Positions 45,584 through 56,231 are shown, counted from the first letter of the stretch. The stretch: DNA of 64,000 nucleotides from Betaproteobacteria bacterium (GCA_016868315.1 VGHE01000006.1:1-64000); one strand, 5' to 3'. The notes: generated by a model from the sequence alone, not told the origin. Translations and numbers: made by a program.

Positions 45584-46500
45584 AACTTCAGGAGATTTTT
45601 ACTGAATGGAACACCCGAAAGGCTGTTGTTGTTGGACTCGTATCGTTACCGTGCGCCATTGCAATCGCAATTTCGGCCTGCATGAACAACAAGGCAGGAG
45701 CAAAAACTCTTCTTTCAACTGACCAAAGTCCCAAAGGCCTCATGCTCTCGGCTCAACAGAGCCCTGGTCATCTCAATAAGCAACACAGCGCCATGGGTGA
45801 GTGGAGCGCTTTTTCAATTTATCACCCCTACTCACAGATCAATGAAGAAAGCCTTTTCCAGAGCTTCAAAAAAGGGAAAGACGGTATCACAGAGGGTCAA
45901 GAATCAATTCAAACAGAAAACGAAAAATCTGAAAGTGCATTCCTGTTGAGCGGGCAAGCTTTGGTTCCGATTTTTCGGGCAACTTTTGGTGATCAAATTC
46001 GAAATGGAAGCGATGTCGAAAGAGATCCCTGGTTCACAACACATCCCTCGGCTTTGTTCACCCCTGAACAAATGAAAGCCCTCTGTGGGAATGACCTCAG
46101 CGATCTTGGAGACGGTAACTTTGAAATCTGCTGGAAACCGAAACTAACAGATCAGTATCTCAGCGCACTCACCGACTTTGCCACCGATGCATGTCCACAG
46201 CTTGTTGCGAAGGAATTTCGCAGCAACTTACTTCATTTGAATAAGCTCGTGCGCACAAGAGATTTTCGCGAGCAGAACCTTAAAAACTTTGCCACAAACT
46301 TTCTGAAAATTCCTGCCGATGAAATCAGCGAGACCTGGCTTGCCACCATGACATCTCAGGCAACAGACGCGCTCAAGGCGAATTTGGAAGACGAGAGTAC
46401 AGAACAAAACAGCAATCAGCGTGCCGAACTTTCAACACCTGACCTTTACACGCTCTCCTGCCAGTCGATCATTCTCTCACGAGAATTTTACTCGCGCTGA
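45580..46500 (+). CDS. Partner lipoprotein of unknown function
   Basis: 306 aa. An N-terminal hydrophobic segment ends in ISAC (Cys 34), a plausible lipobox. The body is polar and helical without known motifs; cysteines in MKALCGND, FEICWK and TDACPQL could pair. Its ATG overlaps the stop of the CxxCH gene, so the two products probably act together at the envelope. The end overlaps the convergent DUF2063-like gene by 13 bases. Confidence 0.6.
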   Translation: MKLQEIFTEWNTRKAVVVGLVSLPCAIAIAISACMNNKAGAKTLLSTDQSPKGLMLSAQQSPGHLNKQHSAMGEWSAFSIYHPYSQINEESLFQSFKKGKDGITEGQESIQTENEKSESAFLLSGQALVPIFRATFGDQIRNGSDVERDPWFTTHPSALFTPEQMKALCGNDLSDLGDGNFEICWKPKLTDQYLSALTDFATDACPQLVAKEFRSNLLHLNKLVRTRDFREQNLKNFATNFLKIPADEISETWLATMTSQATDALKANLEDESTEQNSNQRAELSTPDLYTLSCQSIILSREFYSR

Positions 46501-47156
46501 TTTCCAAGCCATTGTTGCAGTTCAGCCATTTGAACACGCTCGAATTCGAGCGACAGTTGATCTTTTCGGAAGACCACAAAAGCATCGGCATCACCGCCAA
46601 TCTCTTGCATTTTTCCAGACTGCGCGCTTTGCCACAGATCAAAAACCGACCAGGCACCAGGAGACTCAACAAACGCAGCCTGCTTATGCTCCAAAAGCGT
46701 TACGAACGAAAACTTGCGTTCGCGGATGAGCTCGCCAAAGTCAGATCGCCACGGTGCTGTGCGCACCTTCCAGCAGGCCAGTCCGCAACGCATAAGTGTC
46801 TCGAGCTGTGCAACATGCAGGTGAGAGCGCTTGGCTGCGAGTATGTTAATCAGCTGCTCTGCATGCGCGATAGGACTTTCAAAGCAACCCGGATGATTCT
46901 CGAGAAAATCAAGAACAAGACGCGCCAGCTCACGCGCACCCAACCATTGACCTGCCTGCGGAAAGAGGTTTTCAATCCAGAAAAGCACCTGGTGATATTG
47001 TGCGTGCTGATGATGGAGTCCGACGTGCGCAATCTGCTCCGGCGGTACCAAATGCAGTAGTCCATCTGCCCAATGTGATTTGCGTTCATCGCGGAGGCGG
47101 AACGACTCCATCAGCAAGTTTTCAAATGAGAAACGACTTTGGCTCGATTGTTCCAC
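46488..47156 (-). CDS. DUF2063-like partner protein of the MNIO homologue
   Basis: 222 aa from a GTG one base after the stop of the upstream gene, so translation is coupled. The C-terminal half fits the DUF2063/MbnC-BufC partner pattern: a helical region with CGLACWKVRTAPW, then PGAWSVFDLWQSA and strands ADAFVVFRKDQLSLEFERVQ ending in AELQQWLG. In described systems such partners recruit the peptide substrate to an MNIO enzyme. The similarity is weak by eye and supported mainly by the neighbour. Confidence 0.5.
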   Translation of the reverse strand: MEQSSQSRFSFENLLMESFRLRDERKSHWADGLLHLVPPEQIAHVGLHHQHAQYHQVLFWIENLFPQAGQWLGARELARLVLDFLENHPGCFESPIAHAEQLINILAAKRSHLHVAQLETLMRCGLACWKVRTAPWRSDFGELIRERKFSFVTLLEHKQAAFVESPGAWSVFDLWQSAQSGKMQEIGGDADAFVVFRKDQLSLEFERVQMAELQQWLGNQRE

Positions 47157-47157
47157 G

Positions 47158-48048
47158 TCAGACCTCGCTCAGTCGAATCAATGCACTCTGCCCGTTGATA
47201 ACCTCGGCTGCCAGGTCATGAGCAGGAATTAAAGGCTCAAACCACTTCAGGAAAACAGCACGGTGCTGGTTGGCAGGAAGTGCGTGCAACACATCTTCAA
47301 GCAGACCCCAGTGAGTCATGGAAAGACGGCCGCACTCTGCATCTACAACCCCTTGTGTTGAGAGTGCCATGGCACCAACCCGTACACTGGTGATAGACTC
47401 AAGAGGGAGCTTGCGCAGCTCCTGCTCGAATTCTTGTTCAGCATGGTATAGGCTGACATAAAAGGCGGGAACGTCGAGAATCATTTTGCAGCCCGTGGCA
47501 TCGACAAGCCGATTCCAGAACTCCACCTCAGACAACGCATCGAAAGAATACCGGAACATAGATGCAATGTTCACAAGCGATATTTCTCGCTTAGTATAGT
47601 GTTTGATCAGATTCACTCGTTCAATGACGTGATTCAAAATCTCTTTAGTTTTGGGTATGGGCAGTGGAGTCTGTAAACTCTGCCCACGGTGAGAGTTGAA
47701 ACCAACAGTAAAGGCTAACCAGCGCGGCGAGACTTCTTCAACGCATTCGAACAACCTCTTCAGTTCGCCCTCTGTATAATCTTTCTCGGCTCCCAAGTTC
47801 ATGAGACGCGACAGCAGACAAACATCAGTTCTCTGCGCGAACCTGCGTGCCCAAGCACGGTCAACGGAATCTGTCTGCTGAAGAAGGAGAGTGTCGAGCG
47901 AAACCTCAAACGCGGGCAGGTTGTCTGAGTGCGCAAAAGTCGAGTGAAAGTGAGGAAGCAGAGGCAAACCCCAACGCAGAGAGAGGGATTCGAAAGGCTT
48001 TCCCTGGAGGGTCCAGTCCATGCGCGCAGCAGCACCAAAATCACTCAT
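47158..48048 (-). CDS. Divergent MNIO (DUF692/MbnB-BufB)-like protein
   Basis: 296 aa from the ATG at 48048 (AGAGG upstream); the longer frame runs through the tRNA gene and is rejected. The layout matches DUF692 TIM barrels: SPRWLAF, LPIPKTKEILNHVIERV, LVNIASMF, SEVEFWNRLVDATGCKMILD, FYVSLYHAE, LPLESITSVRVGAM, and a late FLKWFEPLIP. Known members are multinuclear non-haem iron oxidases modifying Cys in RiPP precursors. Here several usual ligands appear replaced: LEN becomes LVN, DVNN becomes DVPA, IHLAGH becomes VRVGAM. It may be a pseudoenzyme or a new branch. No precursor peptide is evident nearby. Confidence 0.6.
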   Translation of the reverse strand: MSDFGAAARMDWTLQGKPFESLSLRWGLPLLPHFHSTFAHSDNLPAFEVSLDTLLLQQTDSVDRAWARRFAQRTDVCLLSRLMNLGAEKDYTEGELKRLFECVEEVSPRWLAFTVGFNSHRGQSLQTPLPIPKTKEILNHVIERVNLIKHYTKREISLVNIASMFRYSFDALSEVEFWNRLVDATGCKMILDVPAFYVSLYHAEQEFEQELRKLPLESITSVRVGAMALSTQGVVDAECGRLSMTHWGLLEDVLHALPANQHRAVFLKWFEPLIPAHDLAAEVINGQSALIRLSEV

Positions 48049-48072
48049 GACTGGCCTCTTGCTGTAATGTTG

Positions 48073-48159
48073 TGGTGCTCTCAGCCGGAATCGAACCGGC
48101 ACGGCCTTGCGGCCAACGGATTTTAAGTCCGTTGCGTCTACCAATTTCGCCATGAGAGC
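48073..48159 (-). tRNA. tRNA-Leu(UAA)
   Basis: 87 bases including an encoded CCA. Acceptor stem GCTCTCA / TGAGAGC, anticodon loop CTTAAAA with anticodon TAA, long variable arm (GCCGCAAGGC), T-loop GGTTCGATTCC. A class II tRNA as expected for leucine. Confidence 0.97.
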
Positions 48160-48180
48160 AAACGGTTTTGGGGACACTCT

Positions 48181-48209
48181 TCTATAGCCCAACCGAAACC
48201 GCAGCTCAA
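48181..48209 (-). promoter_or_regulatory. Sigma70-type promoter of tRNA-Leu
   Basis: On the minus strand, -35 TTGAGC (48204-48209), 17-base spacer, -10 TATAGA (48181-48186). Transcription would start about 15 bases before the mature tRNA. Confidence 0.75.
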
Positions 48210-48313
48210 GCGAGCCCCGAACTTCCCAGAGTTGGAGATTTTCGCAAAAATCGCTTATGAGGGCTTGAAATGTAGATGCGCCGCTTGCGCAGAAGCTTAT
48301 CTGAGGAGATTCC

Positions 48314-49129
48314 ATGAGCAGCACACAGGACATTCTGTCGCCCACTCAAGTCGCCGAACACATCCGAAAATCCTACAACGCCCAGCTTCTGGCTGGAAAA
48401 GTTGCACTTGTAACAGGAGGTTCACGCGGTATTGGGCGTTCTATCGCCATTGCCCTGGGTGCCTGCGGAGCACGTGTTGTGGTCAACTATGCAGGTAACG
48501 CTTCCGCCGCCCAGGAAACAGTTGCGGCAATTGAAGCCGTTGGTGGTCAGGCGCGGGCTGTGCAGTTCGACGTGTCCAACAGCACCCAAACCACAGAGGC
48601 CATCAAGGCACTTGAGAAGGAGTTTGGAGGCTTCGATGTTCTCGTCAACAACGCGGGCGTCTCGCGCGACAACCTCTTCATCAAAATGAAAGACGAAGAG
48701 TGGGATGCGAATATCAATACGAACCTGAAGGGCTCGTTCGTTTGCTCACGCGCTGTCACGATGGGCATGATGCGCAAACGTGCTGGAAAAATAATCAACA
48801 TTTCATCGGTCATTGGCTTAACTGGCAACGTTGGTCAAGCCGCTTATGCCGCCAGCAAGGCAGGTCTTCTCGGACTCACCAAGAGCCTCGCCAAGGAGCT
48901 GGCAAGCCGCAATATCCAGGTGAATGCCGTTTGCCCGGGCTACATCACGACCGACATGACATCCGCGCACGGCGAAAAACTCATCGAAAATGTGCTCAAA
49001 CAAATTCCCATGGAGCGCTTGGGTGATCCCATCGAAATTGCTCGCATGGTGGTCTTTCTTGCGAGCGACGCATCGAACTACGTTACCGGACAAACGTTCG
49101 CTGTCGACGGCGGTATGACCATGGTCTAA
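48314..49129 (+). CDS. fabG: 3-oxoacyl-ACP reductase family SDR
   Basis: 271 aa. SDR with [24 protein letters not shown] and YAASKAG, and the C-terminal [16 protein letters not shown] typical of FabG, which reduces 3-ketoacyl-ACP in fatty-acid synthesis. About 27 residues precede the usual start; GAGGAG before the ATG supports this longer N-terminus. It stands alone, not in a fab cluster, so it may be an accessory FabG. The last 47 bases overlap the matrixin gene. Confidence 0.85.
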
Positions 49130-49925
49130 TGACCAGCAGCCCCCAGAACAGTACCGGTGCAAGTCCCATGGCCAGAAGAAGTGCCCACGATGAATTGCCT
49201 CGAGCATTGTCATGGGCACTTTTATTTTGCAGAGCAAATCCTTTGTTTCTGACCGTTGCGAGTGCCAAGGTTCCGCAAGGTGCAAAAGTTTTTGTCCGCT
49301 CGCCGCTGCGAGGTGGATACAGGCTCAAAACTCCCGCCATGTCGTCTAGCCCTAATTGAATTAAGCCGCGCGGCTGCCAATATCCCATGATGGCTGATGG
49401 GTCGGAGTGATTGTGTCCGAGCCCAAGGCAGTGCCCCAGCTCATGAATCATCACAAAAATGAAAACAGGAATAGAGGTGATGTCCTCACCCACTTGAATA
49501 TCGCAATCACGGATACGGGTGGGATCCGATTCATCGCTGAGCGGGTATGCCAACCCACTTGCCACCGTATTTATTTTCCCAATCCCGATTGAAAACTGAT
49601 TATCGGTTTCGTCTATTTTGCCGCTACGCTCCTCCGAAATTTTGAGCTCAATGCCTAAACCTGGAATTTCGTTCCACACGGCCATGGAGCGCTCAACCAA
49701 CAGAGCAAAGTTTTGCGCGTCGGTGCTGTCTGCGTAAATGCCTTCTTCGAAGCTGTCTTTATCAACAAAACGCGGCGCTTCAGGAGTTAAGTAAAAGTAA
49801 AATTGACGTCCATCTTGAGGCTTCAGGCGAGGCTTGTGGGCACTCAAAAAAACATAGGCACTGGCTCCATGAAAGGTCAGAGTCGCCAGCAGTAAACATG
49901 TCGCTGAAAGAATCAGACGCAACAC
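49083..49925 (-). CDS. Matrixin-like zinc metalloprotease with C-terminal membrane segment
   Basis: 280 aa from a GTG. Signal peptide to about residue 23. The zinc site HELGHCLGLGHNH (HExxHxxGxxH) is followed by the Met-turn SAIMGY, the metzincin/matrixin pattern. A hydrophobic segment near residues 245-265 followed by basic residues predicts a membrane anchor with the protease outside the cytoplasm. It lies 28 bases after the outer-membrane protein gene and may be the last gene of the lipid/transport operon. Its end overlaps fabG by 47 bases. Confidence 0.85.
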   Translation of the reverse strand: MLRLILSATCLLLATLTFHGASAYVFLSAHKPRLKPQDGRQFYFYLTPEAPRFVDKDSFEEGIYADSTDAQNFALLVERSMAVWNEIPGLGIELKISEERSGKIDETDNQFSIGIGKINTVASGLAYPLSDESDPTRIRDCDIQVGEDITSIPVFIFVMIHELGHCLGLGHNHSDPSAIMGYWQPRGLIQLGLDDMAGVLSLYPPRSGERTKTFAPCGTLALATVRNKGFALQNKSAHDNARGNSSWALLLAMGLAPVLFWGLLVIRPWSYRRRQRTFVR

Positions 49926-49953: not shown

Positions 49954-51246
49954 TTAAAATTGATATTTCAATGAAGAGCTTATCAGGTTCTTGAACTGTC
50001 GACGCGACAAAGCATAGCCCTTTGACGTCTCAGCAAAGTAGACATCAGCTGCAATTTGCCACGACTCCAAGGCTCTGAAATTGACGCCTGAAGTCAGTAA
50101 ATTTTCCCCTGAAGCAAAAGATCCCAATGCACCAACATAGGCCTCCAGACGCCCGGAAAAAAAGGGCTTCTGTGCACGCCCCCCGAACAGCAGGTTTGAA
50201 CTGACAAACGCCGAACTCGCTGGAGCCGTCCAGCGCTCGCCCCAGAGTTGCCCGGAAATCAAAAAATCATCAAAAAGAGTCAGATCAGCAGTAAGATTGA
50301 GAACGAATTGATCGGAGGAAACCTCGCTCTTGAGGCCTTCCTCTGGAAGCGCTCGATTGATGTGCGCAGCGCCCTCACACCGGACAACCAAATCACCCAC
50401 CGTTTGCGTCGCAGTCAACCCGAGAGTGAACACACGTGGTTCGTACAACCGCGCTTCAACACCCTGAGCTGAAGCTAGAAATCGCAATTGCGGCACCCGT
50501 TCGAGATGCGATGCCAAATAGCCGTTGATGTCCCAGCCGCTCGTGAGAAGACCACCTGCCTTCAAGCCAAACTCAGGTTCACTTCCAAAGAGCAACGGCC
50601 GAGGCTTCCTCAGGATAACTCCTTGGGGAAGATCGGGAATGGGTGAGCGTTCCGGCTGAGGAATAATAACGACCTGAAATACCGTGCTCGCAGCGAGGTA
50701 CTGCAGACTCATTGCTGGCACTGCGAGCTTCTGCAGCTCATCGTCTGTGTAGAGTGGCTCAGTCAGATCTCTGGCATTGAGAACATCCACGCCGTCAAGG
50801 AAACCCGTGTCACCCCAGATGAACTTCTGCCAGCCTAAACTCACAGATGCAGATTGTCCGACCCATTGCAGCGCAGCCTTGTCGAACCTCAAATCATAGC
50901 GACTGCGGCTGCGTGCAAAGTTCGATTGTGTGTCTGCACGCAGCCGAGCATCAACACCAAGGCTCAATGCTCTCGAATCCCAAAGCTGCTGCTCTCCCTT
51001 CAAATTAAATGACGGACGCAGGTTCCACAGGACTCTGTCTTCGAGTGAACCTATGCTCGAGATCTCAACAGACCCACCCCAATTGCGCAGATCAGCCTGT
51101 GCCTCATAAAATGAGAAGTGACCTGAACAGATGAGCGCCAATGCACTCAAGCGCATTGGAAAACGCAATCGCAGGCGCAGGCTGGGAGTGTTGACGTCAG
51201 CCAAACAAGCTGATTCAACGCAGAGCGTTTTGATTGAAAAGAGCAT
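49954..51246 (-). CDS. Outer-membrane protein, DUF1302-like
   Basis: About 430 aa from the ATG at 51246, which has GAGAGAG upstream; a later in-frame ATG at 51156 opens a more compact signal peptide but lacks a ribosome-binding site. The sequence is rich in amphipathic strands with a FIWGDTGFLDGVDVLNARDLTEPL segment and ends in LKYQF, as in outer-membrane barrels. DUF1302-type barrels often sit next to LolA-like proteins, as here (32-base overlap with the gene upstream). Confidence 0.65.
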   Translation of the reverse strand: MLFSIKTLCVESACLADVNTPSLRLRLRFPMRLSALALICSGHFSFYEAQADLRNWGGSVEISSIGSLEDRVLWNLRPSFNLKGEQQLWDSRALSLGVDARLRADTQSNFARSRSRYDLRFDKAALQWVGQSASVSLGWQKFIWGDTGFLDGVDVLNARDLTEPLYTDDELQKLAVPAMSLQYLAASTVFQVVIIPQPERSPIPDLPQGVILRKPRPLLFGSEPEFGLKAGGLLTSGWDINGYLASHLERVPQLRFLASAQGVEARLYEPRVFTLGLTATQTVGDLVVRCEGAAHINRALPEEGLKSEVSSDQFVLNLTADLTLFDDFLISGQLWGERWTAPASSAFVSSNLLFGGRAQKPFFSGRLEAYVGALGSFASGENLLTSGVNFRALESWQIAADVYFAETSKGYALSRRQFKNLISSSLKYQF

Positions 51247-51973
51247 CAGATGACTCTCTCTCCTCAATATTCAAGATCCGCAGCACCGAGGAGTCCTCAG
51301 CATTTTTGGCATCCTCAATCCGAATCTCGGTGGGTCTGACCTCGCCAGCAATTCTCTTGAATTGGCCAAACTGACTGCGCTTCAGAACAAGACCAGACAA
51401 ACTTAGATACTCAGCTTTACTCGGACGAAAACTTCCCTTTTCAACCCACGCTCGAATCTTATCGTAAGTCAGACCCTTCTTGCGCGCACTCAGCACGAGC
51501 ACCCAAAAGCGTGCATCCTCTGATTCAACTGTTGCGGAATAGTCGCCCCACCAGCGCATTCGGCTCACATCCCCGTTCGATGCCTGACCACTGAGCTTTT
51601 GATTCAACGCCACGCGCACCGCCCGCTTCAGATTAGGGACGTAGGCCCACATCTCTTCGCCAATCATAACCATATTGCGACCTTTGTCGCGCACCGGAAG
51701 GAGCGTGTTTATGCGTGTTTTCTCGCGACCTTTGGTGAAGACCTCGAGCTTAACAACATCGTCACCCCCCTTCGAGTGAACCTCAACTTCCATGTAATAA
51801 GAATTCATTGGACAGCGCACCTCATCAGTGCGCTTGAGAATGTCGTCGGCCGAAATTGCTGCGCTGGACTTTGACTCTTTGAGTTGAGCTGTTGAAGCAC
51901 TGGCCTGACTCTCGAAAGCCTGAGGCGTTTGTAATCCAAACAGCACAGCAACAACCATCAATGCATTTCTCAC
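51215..51973 (-). CDS. LolA-like outer-membrane lipid/lipoprotein carrier
   Basis: 252 aa from a GTG with AAGGAG upstream. Signal peptide near residues 1-20. The fold-level pattern fits LolA-like sorting proteins (PF17131 type): ADDILKRTDEVRCP, KLEVFTKGREKTRI, then NMVMIGEEMWAYVPNLKRAVRV and the basic MRWWGDY segment. Such proteins shuttle hydrophobic cargo through the periplasm. It starts 11 bases after the DUF3419 gene, with its SD overlapping that stop codon. Confidence 0.75.
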   Translation of the reverse strand: MRNALMVVAVLFGLQTPQAFESQASASTAQLKESKSSAAISADDILKRTDEVRCPMNSYYMEVEVHSKGGDDVVKLEVFTKGREKTRINTLLPVRDKGRNMVMIGEEMWAYVPNLKRAVRVALNQKLSGQASNGDVSRMRWWGDYSATVESEDARFWVLVLSARKKGLTYDKIRAWVEKGSFRPSKAEYLSLSGLVLKRSQFGQFKRIAGEVRPTEIRIEDAKNAEDSSVLRILNIEERESSDALFNQNALR

Positions 51974-51984
51974 AACAGCTCTCC

Positions 51985-53079
51985 TTATGCCGACTGGCGC
52001 TTGAACACATCGGTTGTGTACATCTGTGTCTTTTCTGCAGCAAAAAACCTATCAAATTCAAAACTCAACTGCACATATCCACTGTCGTCAATACCCTTCA
52101 AAATGCGAAGATAATAACGGGCAACCACCAAAGCATCTTGAGACAAGCCTGGCATCATCCGCTGCAGAAAGTCATGTGCCGTTTTTTCATCAAAGTATGA
52201 TGGAACATCCGACAGCGAGACAAAATCAATCGGCACATCCCGATTTTGCTCGACAATATCAATGACACTCCCCAATTTGTATTCGATCTCGGCACTACGA
52301 ATCCCGGACTGAATGTCTTCGAAGACCTCAGGATGACACTCAATCGGATTACCTTCTGCGAAGCGAATCTCACCCAAGAATGTCAGCTGTAGGAAAAAAT
52401 TTTCTCGCGGCAGCCCCTGTGAGAAAATCCTGTCATAGGCTGCCCTATAAAAACCATAATGGCTCCCCGGAGTGTTTTTTGGAGGAAAACGTCCACGGTA
52501 CAATAGAGTGTTGAAGAACCTCGAATTTCCGATCAAAAAAACAAGAGCGTTCCAGCGCCAAGCAGGAAACTCCAGAGCCAGATACCTTCTAAACTCAAAT
52601 TCATCCGTGAAGGAAAACAACTGTTCTACGGAATCGCTTAAAGCGGCTCGACACATTTTCGAAATCTTTGAAAATGTTCGTTCCCACCGACCGCTGTACA
52701 ATACCGATTGATAGCCATTCGCAGAAAAAATTCCATTGAAGAGCTCACGGCATTCTGATGACATCTGCAATTGGTTGAACAGCTCTTTGCGCTCTTGTGG
52801 TGAAATACTGCGCGGCGGATATCCCCAAAAGGCGAGGAAGTCACCACGGTCAAAGTGACGCGCCGACTCGATGCGCAGCTCTGTTAGCAACAACTGCTCT
52901 CGCGACAGGTCTGCCACCGTGACCTTGTGCGGATGACGGGAAAACAAGGGCAGAACCCGCGCACCGCTGCCCGCAACACTGAGTACATGATTACAACCTG
53001 AGCGGAGCAAGTCACGCTCAAGTGCGGTGTCCTCATTAGCTAGAGTGTAGTTGAGTGTGTTGAAGTAGGTGTCACTCAT
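51985..53079 (-). CDS. DUF3419 / BtaA-like aminocarboxypropyl transferase
   Basis: 364 aa from the ATG at 53079, coupled to the upstream gene (ATGA). The start TYFNTLNYTLANEDTALE and the SAM-binding segment NHVLSVAGSGARVLPLF ... HKVTVADLSREQLLLTELR match DUF3419 proteins. BtaA uses SAM to attach a 3-amino-3-carboxypropyl group to diacylglycerol, the first step to betaine lipids. No BtaB N-methyltransferase is nearby, so the product may be a homoserine-type lipid or something else. Cytoplasmic or peripheral. Confidence 0.75.
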   Translation of the reverse strand: MSDTYFNTLNYTLANEDTALERDLLRSGCNHVLSVAGSGARVLPLFSRHPHKVTVADLSREQLLLTELRIESARHFDRGDFLAFWGYPPRSISPQERKELFNQLQMSSECRELFNGIFSANGYQSVLYSGRWERTFSKISKMCRAALSDSVEQLFSFTDEFEFRRYLALEFPAWRWNALVFLIGNSRFFNTLLYRGRFPPKNTPGSHYGFYRAAYDRIFSQGLPRENFFLQLTFLGEIRFAEGNPIECHPEVFEDIQSGIRSAEIEYKLGSVIDIVEQNRDVPIDFVSLSDVPSYFDEKTAHDFLQRMMPGLSQDALVVARYYLRILKGIDDSGYVQLSFEFDRFFAAEKTQMYTTDVFKRQSA

Positions 53080-55190
53080 ATGAGCTTCAACCTTCTTTTG
53101 GTAGACGAGGGTTGGGTGTGCCACTCGGCAAGATTCCTCTGAGCCAGCTGCCTACAAGACTCCACTTTCTCATCTGTAACCTCACCTTCATGATTGCGTA
53201 TACTCGAGAGCTTTGCACCGTGCTTCAAACCCAGCTGATAGATTTCCTTAACTCGCTCAAGCTGCAATTGCCGGGAGAGCGAGAACGTTTCGTAGCGGCC
53301 TTCCATGGTCAGCAGAACTGTTTCAGCGAGACAGGCATAGACACTGGGTTTGGGCAGTCCGATATCCACGTTCATACGCACTGGACCAGGCAAATCAATT
53401 TCACCACTCTCGATGAGCAGAACATCCGGACGACGCCGCGCCTCTTCAGGACGGATGTCCAATGGGCGTGAACAATCACAGATCACAGCGCCAGGCTTCA
53501 CCCGCATAATGTCTAAAACTTGGCCGCGCTGATTCGAGGTTGCTGTGACTATCAAGTCCGTATCTTCCAGCTCTTCGTTGGGATCTGTGCGCACATGCAC
53601 CACAGTGCGGGGTGACAATTGCTTGAGTTCATCACGGAGCTCAAGGAGCTTATCTGCACGGGGCGCAACGATAACTATTTCATTTGCAACCATCGAAAGC
53701 AGCTGTGCCGATACGCGACCAATACTTCCAGTGGCTCCCAAAACCATAACTTTCATTTTCAGCTGACCGTGCTGATCTTCGCTCTTCACGAATCCCATAC
53801 GCTGAACCATCATCCTTGCTGCCCAAAGAGTTGCCGCAGCTGAGTAGGAATTGCCTGTCGTAACCGGAATCGGTGATCTGCGTGCCACGGTGACACCCGA
53901 ATCACCAATCACCTTCGTGTAGGCGCCGAGTCCAATCATTAGAGCGCCACGGCGGTGTGCATCCTCTGCCGCTGCAACGAGCTGATCGTAGATAAAGTTT
54001 TCATCCATGCGAAGCATCGCACGTGGCGTTGCACACAAGGCATAGATGTCGCAGATGACTTCTTGTCCGGTCAGTTCACTACGAGCAAAGCTCAGCTCTC
54101 CATAGCGAAAGACGGGTATGCGTGCCATCGATGATTCGGCGAGTGAAACAATTTTTTTGGGTACGGTTCTAAGAAAAGAAAATCCAGGAGTGAGGGAAAG
54201 ATGTTTCACACTCAACGGATGAATGATGAATGCACAGCGGCGAGGTACGTGTGTGGACCCTTGCCAGCGTCTGGGTTCAATCCGCAGACCTTCAATCATT
54301 TCGAGTGCAAACTCGCCGATCTCCAATGAGCTCCGCTGACTTATGCGCACCTGATCCATAATTGCCGTGGTCAGGCCAAACGACCACATCTGTTCGGGTA
54401 TTCTGAGCGACGCTGCCTCAGGTGCAAACTCGATGATATGAGCAACTTTGAAGCGCTCGAGTTTTTCACGCTGCTGTTGTGTGAGAAAATCTGTGAACAC
54501 AACCTTGCCTTCAAAAACTTCTGGCTGCTCGATATCACCAAGCAAAGCTGAATAAGTGACGAACACGTCACAGCCAAAAATCCAGCGATTCATCCATTTA
54601 CTTGTGTGCCGTCGCATCCAGTCAGAAAAGATATGTTTTCCGACAATCACCCTGGATGCCAATAAGGTCGTTACCATCGAGAAGAATCTGTTTATCTGGA
54701 TTTTGCTGCGCAAGAGGCTCGGGACACCGAAAAGAAAAAGAGGATCTGCAGACTGAATTATAGCACCACCCTCAATGAAAGATTCAGCAAACGGTGTATA
54801 AAGCGCAGTGTGAAAAAGGACTTTTTTTCTTTTAAAGAAGTGCGGTTCTTCTCGTAAAAACTTTCGCAGCGTCCAGTTTCCAAAAAGTGTAATGAGGTCA
54901 ACCCCTGTATACACTGGAGTTCTGTCTGCAAAACGAATCAGATCTCTCGTGGGATGATGAAGAACTTCCCGGTTCCCAAAGACAGCCTTGTCGCGAACAC
55001 CACTCAGTACAAAAGCATCAACCTCACCGTCGAGTTCATGAAAGATGTGATGTGCTGCCGAGAAGTCCCAACCAATACGCATTTCCGTGATTTCAAAATC
55101 TATTCCACCCAGGCTGATACTTCCCACGACATCATTGCCTTGCTCGAGGAAGTTGAGCACAACAATCCGACGCAGTTTGTTGACTGTCAT
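53076..55190 (-). CDS. Acyl-ACP-reductase-like protein with extra N-terminal domain
   Basis: 704 aa. Residues about 325-640 follow the pattern of cyanobacterial long-chain acyl-ACP reductase: RCAFIIHPLSVKH, an internal Cys in YALCATPRAML aligning with the catalytic Cys, ALMIGLGAYTKVI, VTTGNSYSAAATLW, then Rossmann VMVLGATGSIGRVSAQLL. AAR makes fatty aldehyde from acyl-ACP. The N-terminal 300 residues are not recognised and could be a second enzyme. Overlaps ATGA with both neighbours, tying it to a lipid kinase and a BtaA-like enzyme. Confidence 0.7.
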   Translation of the reverse strand: MTVNKLRRIVVLNFLEQGNDVVGSISLGGIDFEITEMRIGWDFSAAHHIFHELDGEVDAFVLSGVRDKAVFGNREVLHHPTRDLIRFADRTPVYTGVDLITLFGNWTLRKFLREEPHFFKRKKVLFHTALYTPFAESFIEGGAIIQSADPLFLFGVPSLLRSKIQINRFFSMVTTLLASRVIVGKHIFSDWMRRHTSKWMNRWIFGCDVFVTYSALLGDIEQPEVFEGKVVFTDFLTQQQREKLERFKVAHIIEFAPEAASLRIPEQMWSFGLTTAIMDQVRISQRSSLEIGEFALEMIEGLRIEPRRWQGSTHVPRRCAFIIHPLSVKHLSLTPGFSFLRTVPKKIVSLAESSMARIPVFRYGELSFARSELTGQEVICDIYALCATPRAMLRMDENFIYDQLVAAAEDAHRRGALMIGLGAYTKVIGDSGVTVARRSPIPVTTGNSYSAAATLWAARMMVQRMGFVKSEDQHGQLKMKVMVLGATGSIGRVSAQLLSMVANEIVIVAPRADKLLELRDELKQLSPRTVVHVRTDPNEELEDTDLIVTATSNQRGQVLDIMRVKPGAVICDCSRPLDIRPEEARRRPDVLLIESGEIDLPGPVRMNVDIGLPKPSVYACLAETVLLTMEGRYETFSLSRQLQLERVKEIYQLGLKHGAKLSSIRNHEGEVTDEKVESCRQLAQRNLAEWHTQPSSTKRRLKLI

Positions 55191-56134
55191 GCGACTGAAC
55201 CTCCTGCAGTCAAAAGCGATAGAGCACCTTTGTGAACGCTGAAGCGCATCACGGAGTCCATCTCAAATGCCTCCCCATCGGCAAAGAAGAGTTGCTCGCG
55301 GCCGTCGGAAGCGCGTACGAGAAGAGATTCAGTTGTAAGACGCTCCGATAAGATGGGCTCCACCTCCATGCGCAATGCGGTCAGTGAACGCAGCAGATCA
55401 AAGGGGGTCTTTGCTTTCAAAAAAAGTATATCGAAACAACCGTCTGACGTGCTGGCATTGGGTGCTACCGTCAGGTTGCCACCCAGACGAGGCTGATTAC
55501 AGATAAAAACATTGCTGAAGAGCCCGGAGAATGAACCCTGCGGAGACTCAATCTCATAATGCCTCAGATAGGCTCTCCGCCCAATAATCGTGCCCGCTGC
55601 AAGAGCCGTGTAGATGTTGCTACCAGCGGCTTCGGCTGCCCTTTTAAACAAGGGTGAGAATTGCCTTGCCTTGTTGAAGTCGCGTGTCAGGAAGGCTCCG
55701 ACACCTAATCCGCCCACAGTCGTAAAATTAATTCCGTTACAACTGAGCACATCCACTTGTCGCAAGACGCGGCGGGTTAGAGCTGATTGGAGTGAAAGCA
55801 CGTCGGGTGTGTATCCCCAGTGGGATGCAAAATCATTCGCTGTACCGAGAGGAAGAACGACAACTGCATGCTGAGTTTCCATGAGAGCCTGCAACGCGCA
55901 TTGCAACGTTCCGTCGCCACCCGCAATAACGAGATCTTCATGCAAGGGGATGCTGCGAATAAGCTCGTGCATTTCGTTCGGCGACGCCGGAGCATGCAAG
56001 GTCACAGGCCAGCGTGGCAAACCGGCGCGCAGAGCCAGCGCAAGGCGATCCCTGTGCGCACGACCTGCAGCAGAGTTCATGATGACATGACACATCCGCG
56101 CCGACGCTGCCGCTTTTCGCTTGTCCACAGACAT
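55187..56134 (-). CDS. Diacylglycerol/sphingosine kinase-family lipid kinase
   Basis: 315 aa from the ATG at 56134 (an in-frame GTG lies four codons earlier). DAGK catalytic motif VIAGGDGTLQCALQALM, VLPLGTANDFA, and a conserved TTVGGLGVGAFLTRDFN; later DGCFDILF and FADGEAFE. Cytoplasmic enzymes of this family phosphorylate diacylglycerol or related lipids. First gene of the lipid operon, with a promoter-like sequence upstream at 56232-56260. Confidence 0.85.
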   Translation of the reverse strand: MSVDKRKAAASARMCHVIMNSAAGRAHRDRLALALRAGLPRWPVTLHAPASPNEMHELIRSIPLHEDLVIAGGDGTLQCALQALMETQHAVVVLPLGTANDFASHWGYTPDVLSLQSALTRRVLRQVDVLSCNGINFTTVGGLGVGAFLTRDFNKARQFSPLFKRAAEAAGSNIYTALAAGTIIGRRAYLRHYEIESPQGSFSGLFSNVFICNQPRLGGNLTVAPNASTSDGCFDILFLKAKTPFDLLRSLTALRMEVEPILSERLTTESLLVRASDGREQLFFADGEAFEMDSVMRFSVHKGALSLLTAGGSVA

Positions 56135-56231
56135 CCCTAACCCCACGCCCTACACTCTGAGGAACAACCTCAGTGCCGTTTCGGAAAAGCGGACTCTGAC
56201 TTGAGCTGAAGTGTAATTAAATTACTGCAAT

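Follow-up and report, generated by a model that had tools for sequence, protein, structure and literature searches.

The window analysed here, a 64,000-nucleotide stretch deposited as Betaproteobacteria bacterium (GCA_016868315.1 VGHE01000006.1:1-64000), carries five joined minus-strand genes for lipid-type enzymes and envelope transport proteins. This five-gene operon is real and its neighborhood is conserved. On balance, we favor the reading that it is one half of a conserved pathway that makes and exports an unusual amino-lipid or lipid-like metabolite. Evidence from families, folds and active sites identifies a thioester reductase, a lipid kinase, an S-adenosylmethionine (SAM) enzyme and a periplasmic carrier among the products of the operon. 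All five open reading frames (ORFs) described in an earlier note, which was made from the window's sequence, were found. The source genome is Silvanigrella-like (3.24 Mb, 27 contigs). The five genes and one neighbor are as follows.

55187..56137, minus strand: diacylglycerol kinase (DAGK)-like lipid kinase, 316 amino acids (aa), GGDGT motif (DAGK_cat PF00781 4.7e-18; YegS_C PF19279 8.4e-8)
53076..55190, minus strand: AAR/PigE-type acyl-ACP (thioester) reductase, 704 aa (PigE model 2.5e-47; TIGR04058 1.8e-15)
51985..53079, minus strand: DUF3419 SAM-dependent enzyme, NED-type, 364 aa (PF11899 7.9e-26)
51215..51973, minus strand: LolA-like periplasmic lipid/lipoprotein carrier, 252 aa, hydrophobic N-terminal leader (PF17131 1.1e-33)
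49954..51246 or shorter, probably 49954..51156, minus strand: DUF1302-like outer-membrane protein (PF06980 8.4e-5)
49083..49925, minus strand: matrixin-like metalloprotease with a putative C-terminal membrane anchor (Peptidase_M10 PF00413 1.3e-7); a neighbor, not core

The genes had been described as joined by two ATGA overlaps, an 11-base gap with a shared Shine-Dalgarno/stop sequence and a 32-base overlap. The first three junctions were exact: the kinase and AAR genes overlap at 55187-55190, the AAR and DUF3419 genes overlap at 53076-53079, and the gap between the DUF3419 and LolA-like genes is exactly 11 bases and carries TAAGGAG as stop and Shine-Dalgarno sequence. Both ATGA overlaps are also present in L029, an 'uncultured Silvanigrella sp.' metagenome-assembled genome (MAG) that has the same operon, including the matrixin gene, and whose AAR protein shows 81% identity. 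The 32-base overlap between the LolA-like and DUF1302-like genes requires an early start codon. An internal ATG at 51156 opens a signal-peptide-like leader (MRLSALALICSGHFSFYEAQA), and the DUF1302-like homologue in L029 starts 20 bases past the LolA stop; the DUF1302-like gene probably begins at this internal ATG. In a scan for promoters and terminators, the number of sites was not above that in shuffled sequence.

Conservation of the operon and its second block

Scanning bacterial and archaeal genomes gave 579 confirmed relatives, and the best 80 of the 579 were analysed as loci. Full-length AAR homologues were present in 12 of 58 Bdellovibrionota genomes. A kinase and/or a short-chain dehydrogenase/reductase (SDR) lay beside AAR in 49 of the 80 loci; the other 31, mostly from Marinobacter, had neither. 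Clusters located on at least 20 kb (n = 30) carried the kinase in 30/30 cases, SDR in 29/30, DUF3419 in 29/30 and a phosphoenolpyruvate (PEP)-synthase-like enzyme in 28/30. The usual gene order was kinase–SDR reductase–AAR–DUF3419, with ATGA overlaps. Beside it, relatives across Bdellovibrionota carried a second block made up of an AMP-ligase, a UbiA prenyltransferase, a PEP-synthase/PigC-like enzyme and a GNAT or a formyltransferase; LolA, a barrel-like protein and a LolCDE-like ABC transporter were additionally linked in some loci. The AMP-ligase was fused in some relatives to UbiA or to an alpha/beta hydrolase, the latter in an OleB-OleC-like arrangement. Among 56 genomes of the phylum, the PEP-synthase-like enzyme and UbiA co-occurred in 19 of 19, and DUF3419 was present in every case; one extra genome (G008) had a weak partial UbiA match only. 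Both blocks were present in a strain-named assembly, Bacteriovorax sp. BSW11_IV (L068), and a divergent cluster (G040, L165) also contained LolA_like and an RND/MMPL-type exporter. The conserved combination of lipid-type enzymes with periplasmic and outer-membrane transport proteins that had been proposed is thus borne out by a gene order that recurs in dozens of genomes. Because this neighborhood reaches well beyond the source genome, the proposal withstood its own refutation test, namely that conservation might be limited to that genome.

The second block of the source genome is located on another contig, C8 (locus L155, G000:C8). It consists of an AMP-ligase–UbiA fusion, the PEP-synthase-like gene, a LolD/DevA-like ATPase and a LolC/E-like permease, with divergent genes for an AurF-like oxygenase and a GNAT, so that the LolCDE-like transporter of this genome is apart from the LolA-like gene. 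The same arrangement was found in two congeners (L156 and L157), one of them broken by a contig end. In three Bacteriovoracaceae loci (L069, L087 and L098), the genes for DUF3419, the barrel-like protein, LolA, the ABC permease, the ABC ATPase, GNAT and the PEP-synthase-like enzyme are contiguous, so that the simplest reading of the two Silvanigrella loci is that they are halves of a single system. The operon of the window is only a part of the proposed pathway. The AurF-like protein (L155:13425-14423, plus strand; PF11583 9.8e-15), a diiron oxygenase encoded beside the GNAT, hints at N-oxygenation or another oxidation.

We also considered that unrelated envelope and metabolic genes might simply be co-transcribed in Silvanigrella by chance or for operational reasons. 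The separate location of the second block, the lack of a detected SDR in Silvanigrella and the matrixin gene close behind the operon would fit such a neighborhood, but order and co-occurrence repeat in dozens of genomes, in several orders and in alternative arrangements, which makes this explanation extremely improbable.

Some neighbors were set aside. Ribonucleotide reductase genes (families 13 and 18) lie beside many clusters and were rejected as housekeeping genes. The Marinobacter loci (L064, L071, L074-L079 and others) contain a full-length AAR homologue (about 37-39% identity) with no kinase, SDR or DUF3419 nearby, often between tRNA-dihydrouridine-synthase-like and fructose-bisphosphate-aldolase-like genes. 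As this AAR lies among housekeeping genes, these loci are uninformative about partners; the homologue may be an unrecognised source of fatty aldehyde in a wax-ester-producing genus. An Acidobacteriota contig (Blastocatellia, L045) has AAR and SDR adjacent to each other and no DUF3419, indicating that the AAR-SDR pair can exist outside the cluster.

Enzymes and envelope proteins of the operon

The 704-aa protein had been predicted to lie near AAR, and profile searches placed it there. Its AAR/PigE reductase domain comprises residues about 313-694, with a GATGSIG motif and the catalytic Cys620. The best named family match was the reductase part of PigE (2.5e-47, residues 321-693), followed by cyanobacterial AAR (1.8e-15), for which the TIGR04058 equivalog cut-off was missed (57.1 vs 449.7 bits). 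In the AlphaFold2 model (mean predicted local distance difference test score, pLDDT, 89.7), the C-terminal half matched the solved AAR structure 6jzu with Z 33.5 over 324 aligned residues (root-mean-square deviation 2.9), and Cys620 aligned with the acyl-holding Cys294 of AAR 6jzq. PigE has a conserved Cys296 at the equivalent position (PMC8341465). Cys620 was invariant across 55 homologues, and all 91 genes counted had the GATGxIG motif. The predicted Cys620-dependent reduction of an acyl thioester, yielding a fatty aldehyde, is well supported by these matches.

Residues 1-312 of the same protein gave no family match in the profile search. The structure search gave no separate match to this N-terminal domain among the matches listed, because the AAR domain occupies that list. 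When the N-terminal domain was compared with the protein's own AAR domain by hhalign, two lobes were collinear (56-256 with 67-282). The first lobe scored 26.6, compared with at most 19.9 in 48 control profiles, and the second lobe scored 18.6, within the range of its controls. Strand and helix order, judged by eye in the AlphaFold2 model, was similar in the two domains, and the N-terminal copy has neither the catalytic Cys nor GATGxIG. What had been called an unknown 300-residue domain is probably a degenerate AAR-like duplication.

The 364-aa protein falls within DUF3419 (PF11899, 91.6 bits vs a cut-off of 28.2). In common with BtaA (SAM:diacylglycerol 3-amino-3-carboxypropyltransferase), it has the DUF3419 domain and a SAM-enzyme fold, which the predicted structure shows as class I with helical insertions (pLDDT 92.3); a sequence search against solved structures returned nothing useful. 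The label BtaA-like did not hold. The family alignment has Y-x-x-x-N-E-D at the site where BtaA-type proteins have W-E-D, and a 39-protein tree, which included three rhizobial plasmid proteins and three Bdellovibrionota proteins of the WED type, split these from the NED group (100/100); branches in the tree were long. The sequence thus places the protein in a clade distinct from BtaA; it is not BtaA.

These differences bear on a betaine-lipid (diacylglyceryl trimethylhomoserine) pathway, in which DUF3419 would act as BtaA on diacylglycerol and the kinase would govern the diacylglycerol supply. The family match favors such a pathway, but the rhizobial WED proteins from which the NED clade is separated include two, out of three, that are followed by a SAM methyltransferase gene. 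The genome G031, also from Bdellovibrionota, contains both DUF3419 types, with a BtaB-like methyltransferase after the WED copy and not after the NED copy; the two types are therefore separate genes. In the source genome no BtaB gene was adjacent to the operon, and one BtaB-like query (from G031) matched nothing, although one query is not enough to exclude such a gene. On the basis of clade and motif we rejected the betaine-lipid pathway, which we regard as very unlikely. The NED-type protein would be a 3-amino-3-carboxypropyltransferase; enzymes that transfer aminocarboxypropyl groups are known to use a range of acceptors (PMC10491745). Automatic annotation would mistake this subfamily for betaine-lipid synthesis.

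The assignments of the DAG-kinase-like and LolA-like proteins were upheld. The GGDGT nucleotide-binding motif was present in all 54 cluster kinase homologues, and the carrier matched LolA_like with 116.8 bits vs a cut-off of 30. LolA-like homologues adjoin a LolCDE-like ABC transporter in five loci (L035, L042, L069, L087 and L098). The DUF1302-like protein fell just under the PF06980 cut-off in the window (22.2 vs 23.2 bits) and over it in the L029 orthologue (32 bits, 8.8e-8). The protein has an AQA/DL leader and ends in ...SSLKYQF; by eye, and from the sequence only, its homologues end in QF or TY.

The matrixin gene had been suggested as a possible sixth member. In the examined loci it lies behind the operon only in L016/L029, one same-genus genome, and we rejected it because its conservation is confined to this near relative. 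The protease weakly matches a myxosortase-dependent metalloprotease model, and at its C-terminus arginines come after a hydrophobic stretch, much as in a C-terminal sorting or anchor signal. Further along in the window (46488-48345, minus strand) lies an MbnB/TglH/ChrH-family (DUF692) gene (PF05114 3.3e-30) followed by a weak DUF2063-like partner, a pair that is kept in L016/L029. The listed start of the DUF692 ORF contains a tRNA-Leu gene (48073-48159), which places its true start downstream of the tRNA. Such a pairing is found in clusters for ribosomally synthesised and post-translationally modified peptides of the bufferin/methanobactin type.

Proposed pathway and its alternatives

Substrates, step order and product we infer as follows. 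An acyl thioester (acyl-ACP, where ACP is acyl carrier protein) would be reduced to a fatty aldehyde by AAR via Cys620. The SDR, encoded between the kinase and AAR in most relatives, would convert the aldehyde to an alcohol. Lipid intermediates may be phosphorylated, and so activated, by the DAG-kinase-like enzyme and the PEP-synthase-like phosphotransferase. The AMP-ligase and the UbiA-type membrane transferase, fused in the source genome, could then join an activated acid with an alkyl or prenyl chain. NED-type DUF3419 would take the 3-amino-3-carboxypropyl group from SAM and attach it to the lipid, giving a head with an amine and a carboxylate. This amine would be capped by the GNAT or, in other species, by the formyltransferase. 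Their distribution fits this step: GNAT was found in 16 of 32 loci and formyltransferase in 15 of 32, never both (Fisher p = 6e-8, uncorrected for ancestry), and such mutual replacement is expected if both cap the same amine. As judged from gene linkage, delivery to the outer membrane would fall to the LolCDE-like ABC transporter together with the LolA-like carrier and the DUF1302-like barrel. A product with a homoserine-type head and an aldehyde- or alcohol-derived chain, as suggested earlier, is a reasonable candidate.

Several observations weigh against this pathway as drawn. AAR is missing from nine genomes that do have DUF3419 and the second block, and the LolA, barrel and ABC genes are linked in a minority of loci only. 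In one relative (G047/L018), whose assembly is 83% complete, the kinase and AAR are present but DUF3419 and the second block are not. No SDR of the cluster family was found in Silvanigrella-like genomes at E <= 1e-40, so there one has to assume either a different reductase or an aldehyde that is used directly. The co-occurrence p-values disregard shared ancestry, and the genomes are mostly MAGs. The exported cargo might also be a metabolite, soluble or secreted, rather than a membrane lipid.

The nine AAR-less genomes suggest that AAR is one among several alternative supply modules. Six of these nine encode an HMG-CoA reductase fused to an APH/EcKL-type kinase (800-930 aa in all), always on a contig with core genes, whereas none of the 10 genomes with AAR and the core does (p = 0.003, uncorrected). 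At the fusion loci (L158, L162, L163, L165, L167 and L168), a second HMG-CoA reductase, the one joined to the kinase, lies with DUF3419, UbiA and/or the PEP-synthase-like gene. An absence of HMG-CoA reductase from AAR genomes was considered and proved wrong: a housekeeping copy is present in 55 of 56 genomes, and only the fusion is restricted. Since both modules pair a thioester reductase with a kinase, they suggest a core that consumes a phosphorylated alcohol. These replacements, of a formyl or acyl cap and of supply by AAR or the HMG-CoA reductase fusion, put limits on the chemistry.

A secreted small molecule with a fatty tail, such as a siderophore, signal or antibiotic, for which LolCDE, LolA and the barrel form the exporter, is a tentative alternative. 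The AMP-ligase, PEP-synthase/PigC-like enzyme, P450, AurF-like N-oxygenase, formyltransferase and GNAT are typical of natural-product tailoring, the PigE-like and PigC/RedH-like matches recall prodiginine synthesis, and the distribution is patchy. However, the scanned clusters showed no polyketide synthase, nonribosomal peptide synthetase or dedicated pigment genes, every large cluster has the lipid kinase, and LolA/LolCDE-type carriers transport lipidated cargo. We continue to favor an amino-lipid or lipid-like product. It is possible, though doubtful, that this product is an unknown class of outer-membrane lipid in Bdellovibrionota, with a chain derived from a fatty alcohol or aldehyde, a SAM-derived homoserine-type head, an N-acylated or N-formylated amine, a dedicated Lol-like route, and modular chain supply by AAR and the lipid kinase or by the HMG-CoA-reductase-kinase fusion.

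Judged on titles and abstracts of open-licence literature, the gene combination with linked Lol-like export was not found; because only open-licence sources were covered, an earlier description elsewhere is possible. Every enzyme comes from a known family, the apparent novelty being the combination and the linked export, and the chance that the lipid class is new is fair. The result points to a conserved uncharacterised lipid or lipid-like product with dedicated export in a phylum that has many bacterial predators and host-associated members, and it offers a defined gene set, a probable tandem AAR architecture and at least one strain-named assembly with both blocks.

Comparison with known systems

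The reductase shares with cyanobacterial AAR (TIGR04058; PDB 6jzq/6jzu) the fold, the GATGxIG NAD(P) motif and the catalytic Cys. It differs in having about 20% identity in the structural alignment and an additional 310 N-terminal residues, and no aldehyde-deformylating oxygenase was found among the scanned neighbor genes. The thioester reductase domain of PigE/TamH from the prodigiosin and tambjamine pathways (PMC8341465, PMC9594044) is the best family match and has the conserved Cys; unlike these proteins, the AAR protein has no fused aminotransferase, carries the added N-terminal domain and has other neighbors.

The PEP-synthase-like protein shares ATP-grasp and phospho-His domains with the PigC/RedH ligases and rifampin phosphotransferase over nearly its full length, and it retains the PEP-utiliser His and the ATP-grasp residues. 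However, it lies well under the cut-offs of these families (for the C8 protein, PigC 328.9/1300 and RedH 364.6/1350 bits), and its nearest model is PRK06241.2 (860 bits, cut-off 883), of unproven function. The abhydrolase–AMP-ligase fusion resembles OleB-OleC of the OleBCD olefin/beta-lactone pathway and the SDR weakly resembles OleD, but the Ole cut-offs were missed, no OleA thiolase was noticed in the clusters, and the SDR better matches the fatty-acyl-reductase-type SDR model PRK07201.

With Lol lipoprotein transport (LolCDE-LolA-LolB), the system shares a LolC/E-like permease (TIGR02212 1.1e-27), a LolD/DevA-like ATPase and a LolA_like carrier. Unlike Lol, its carrier belongs to PF17131 rather than canonical LolA, and its genes sit in a biosynthetic cluster with a DUF1302-like barrel.

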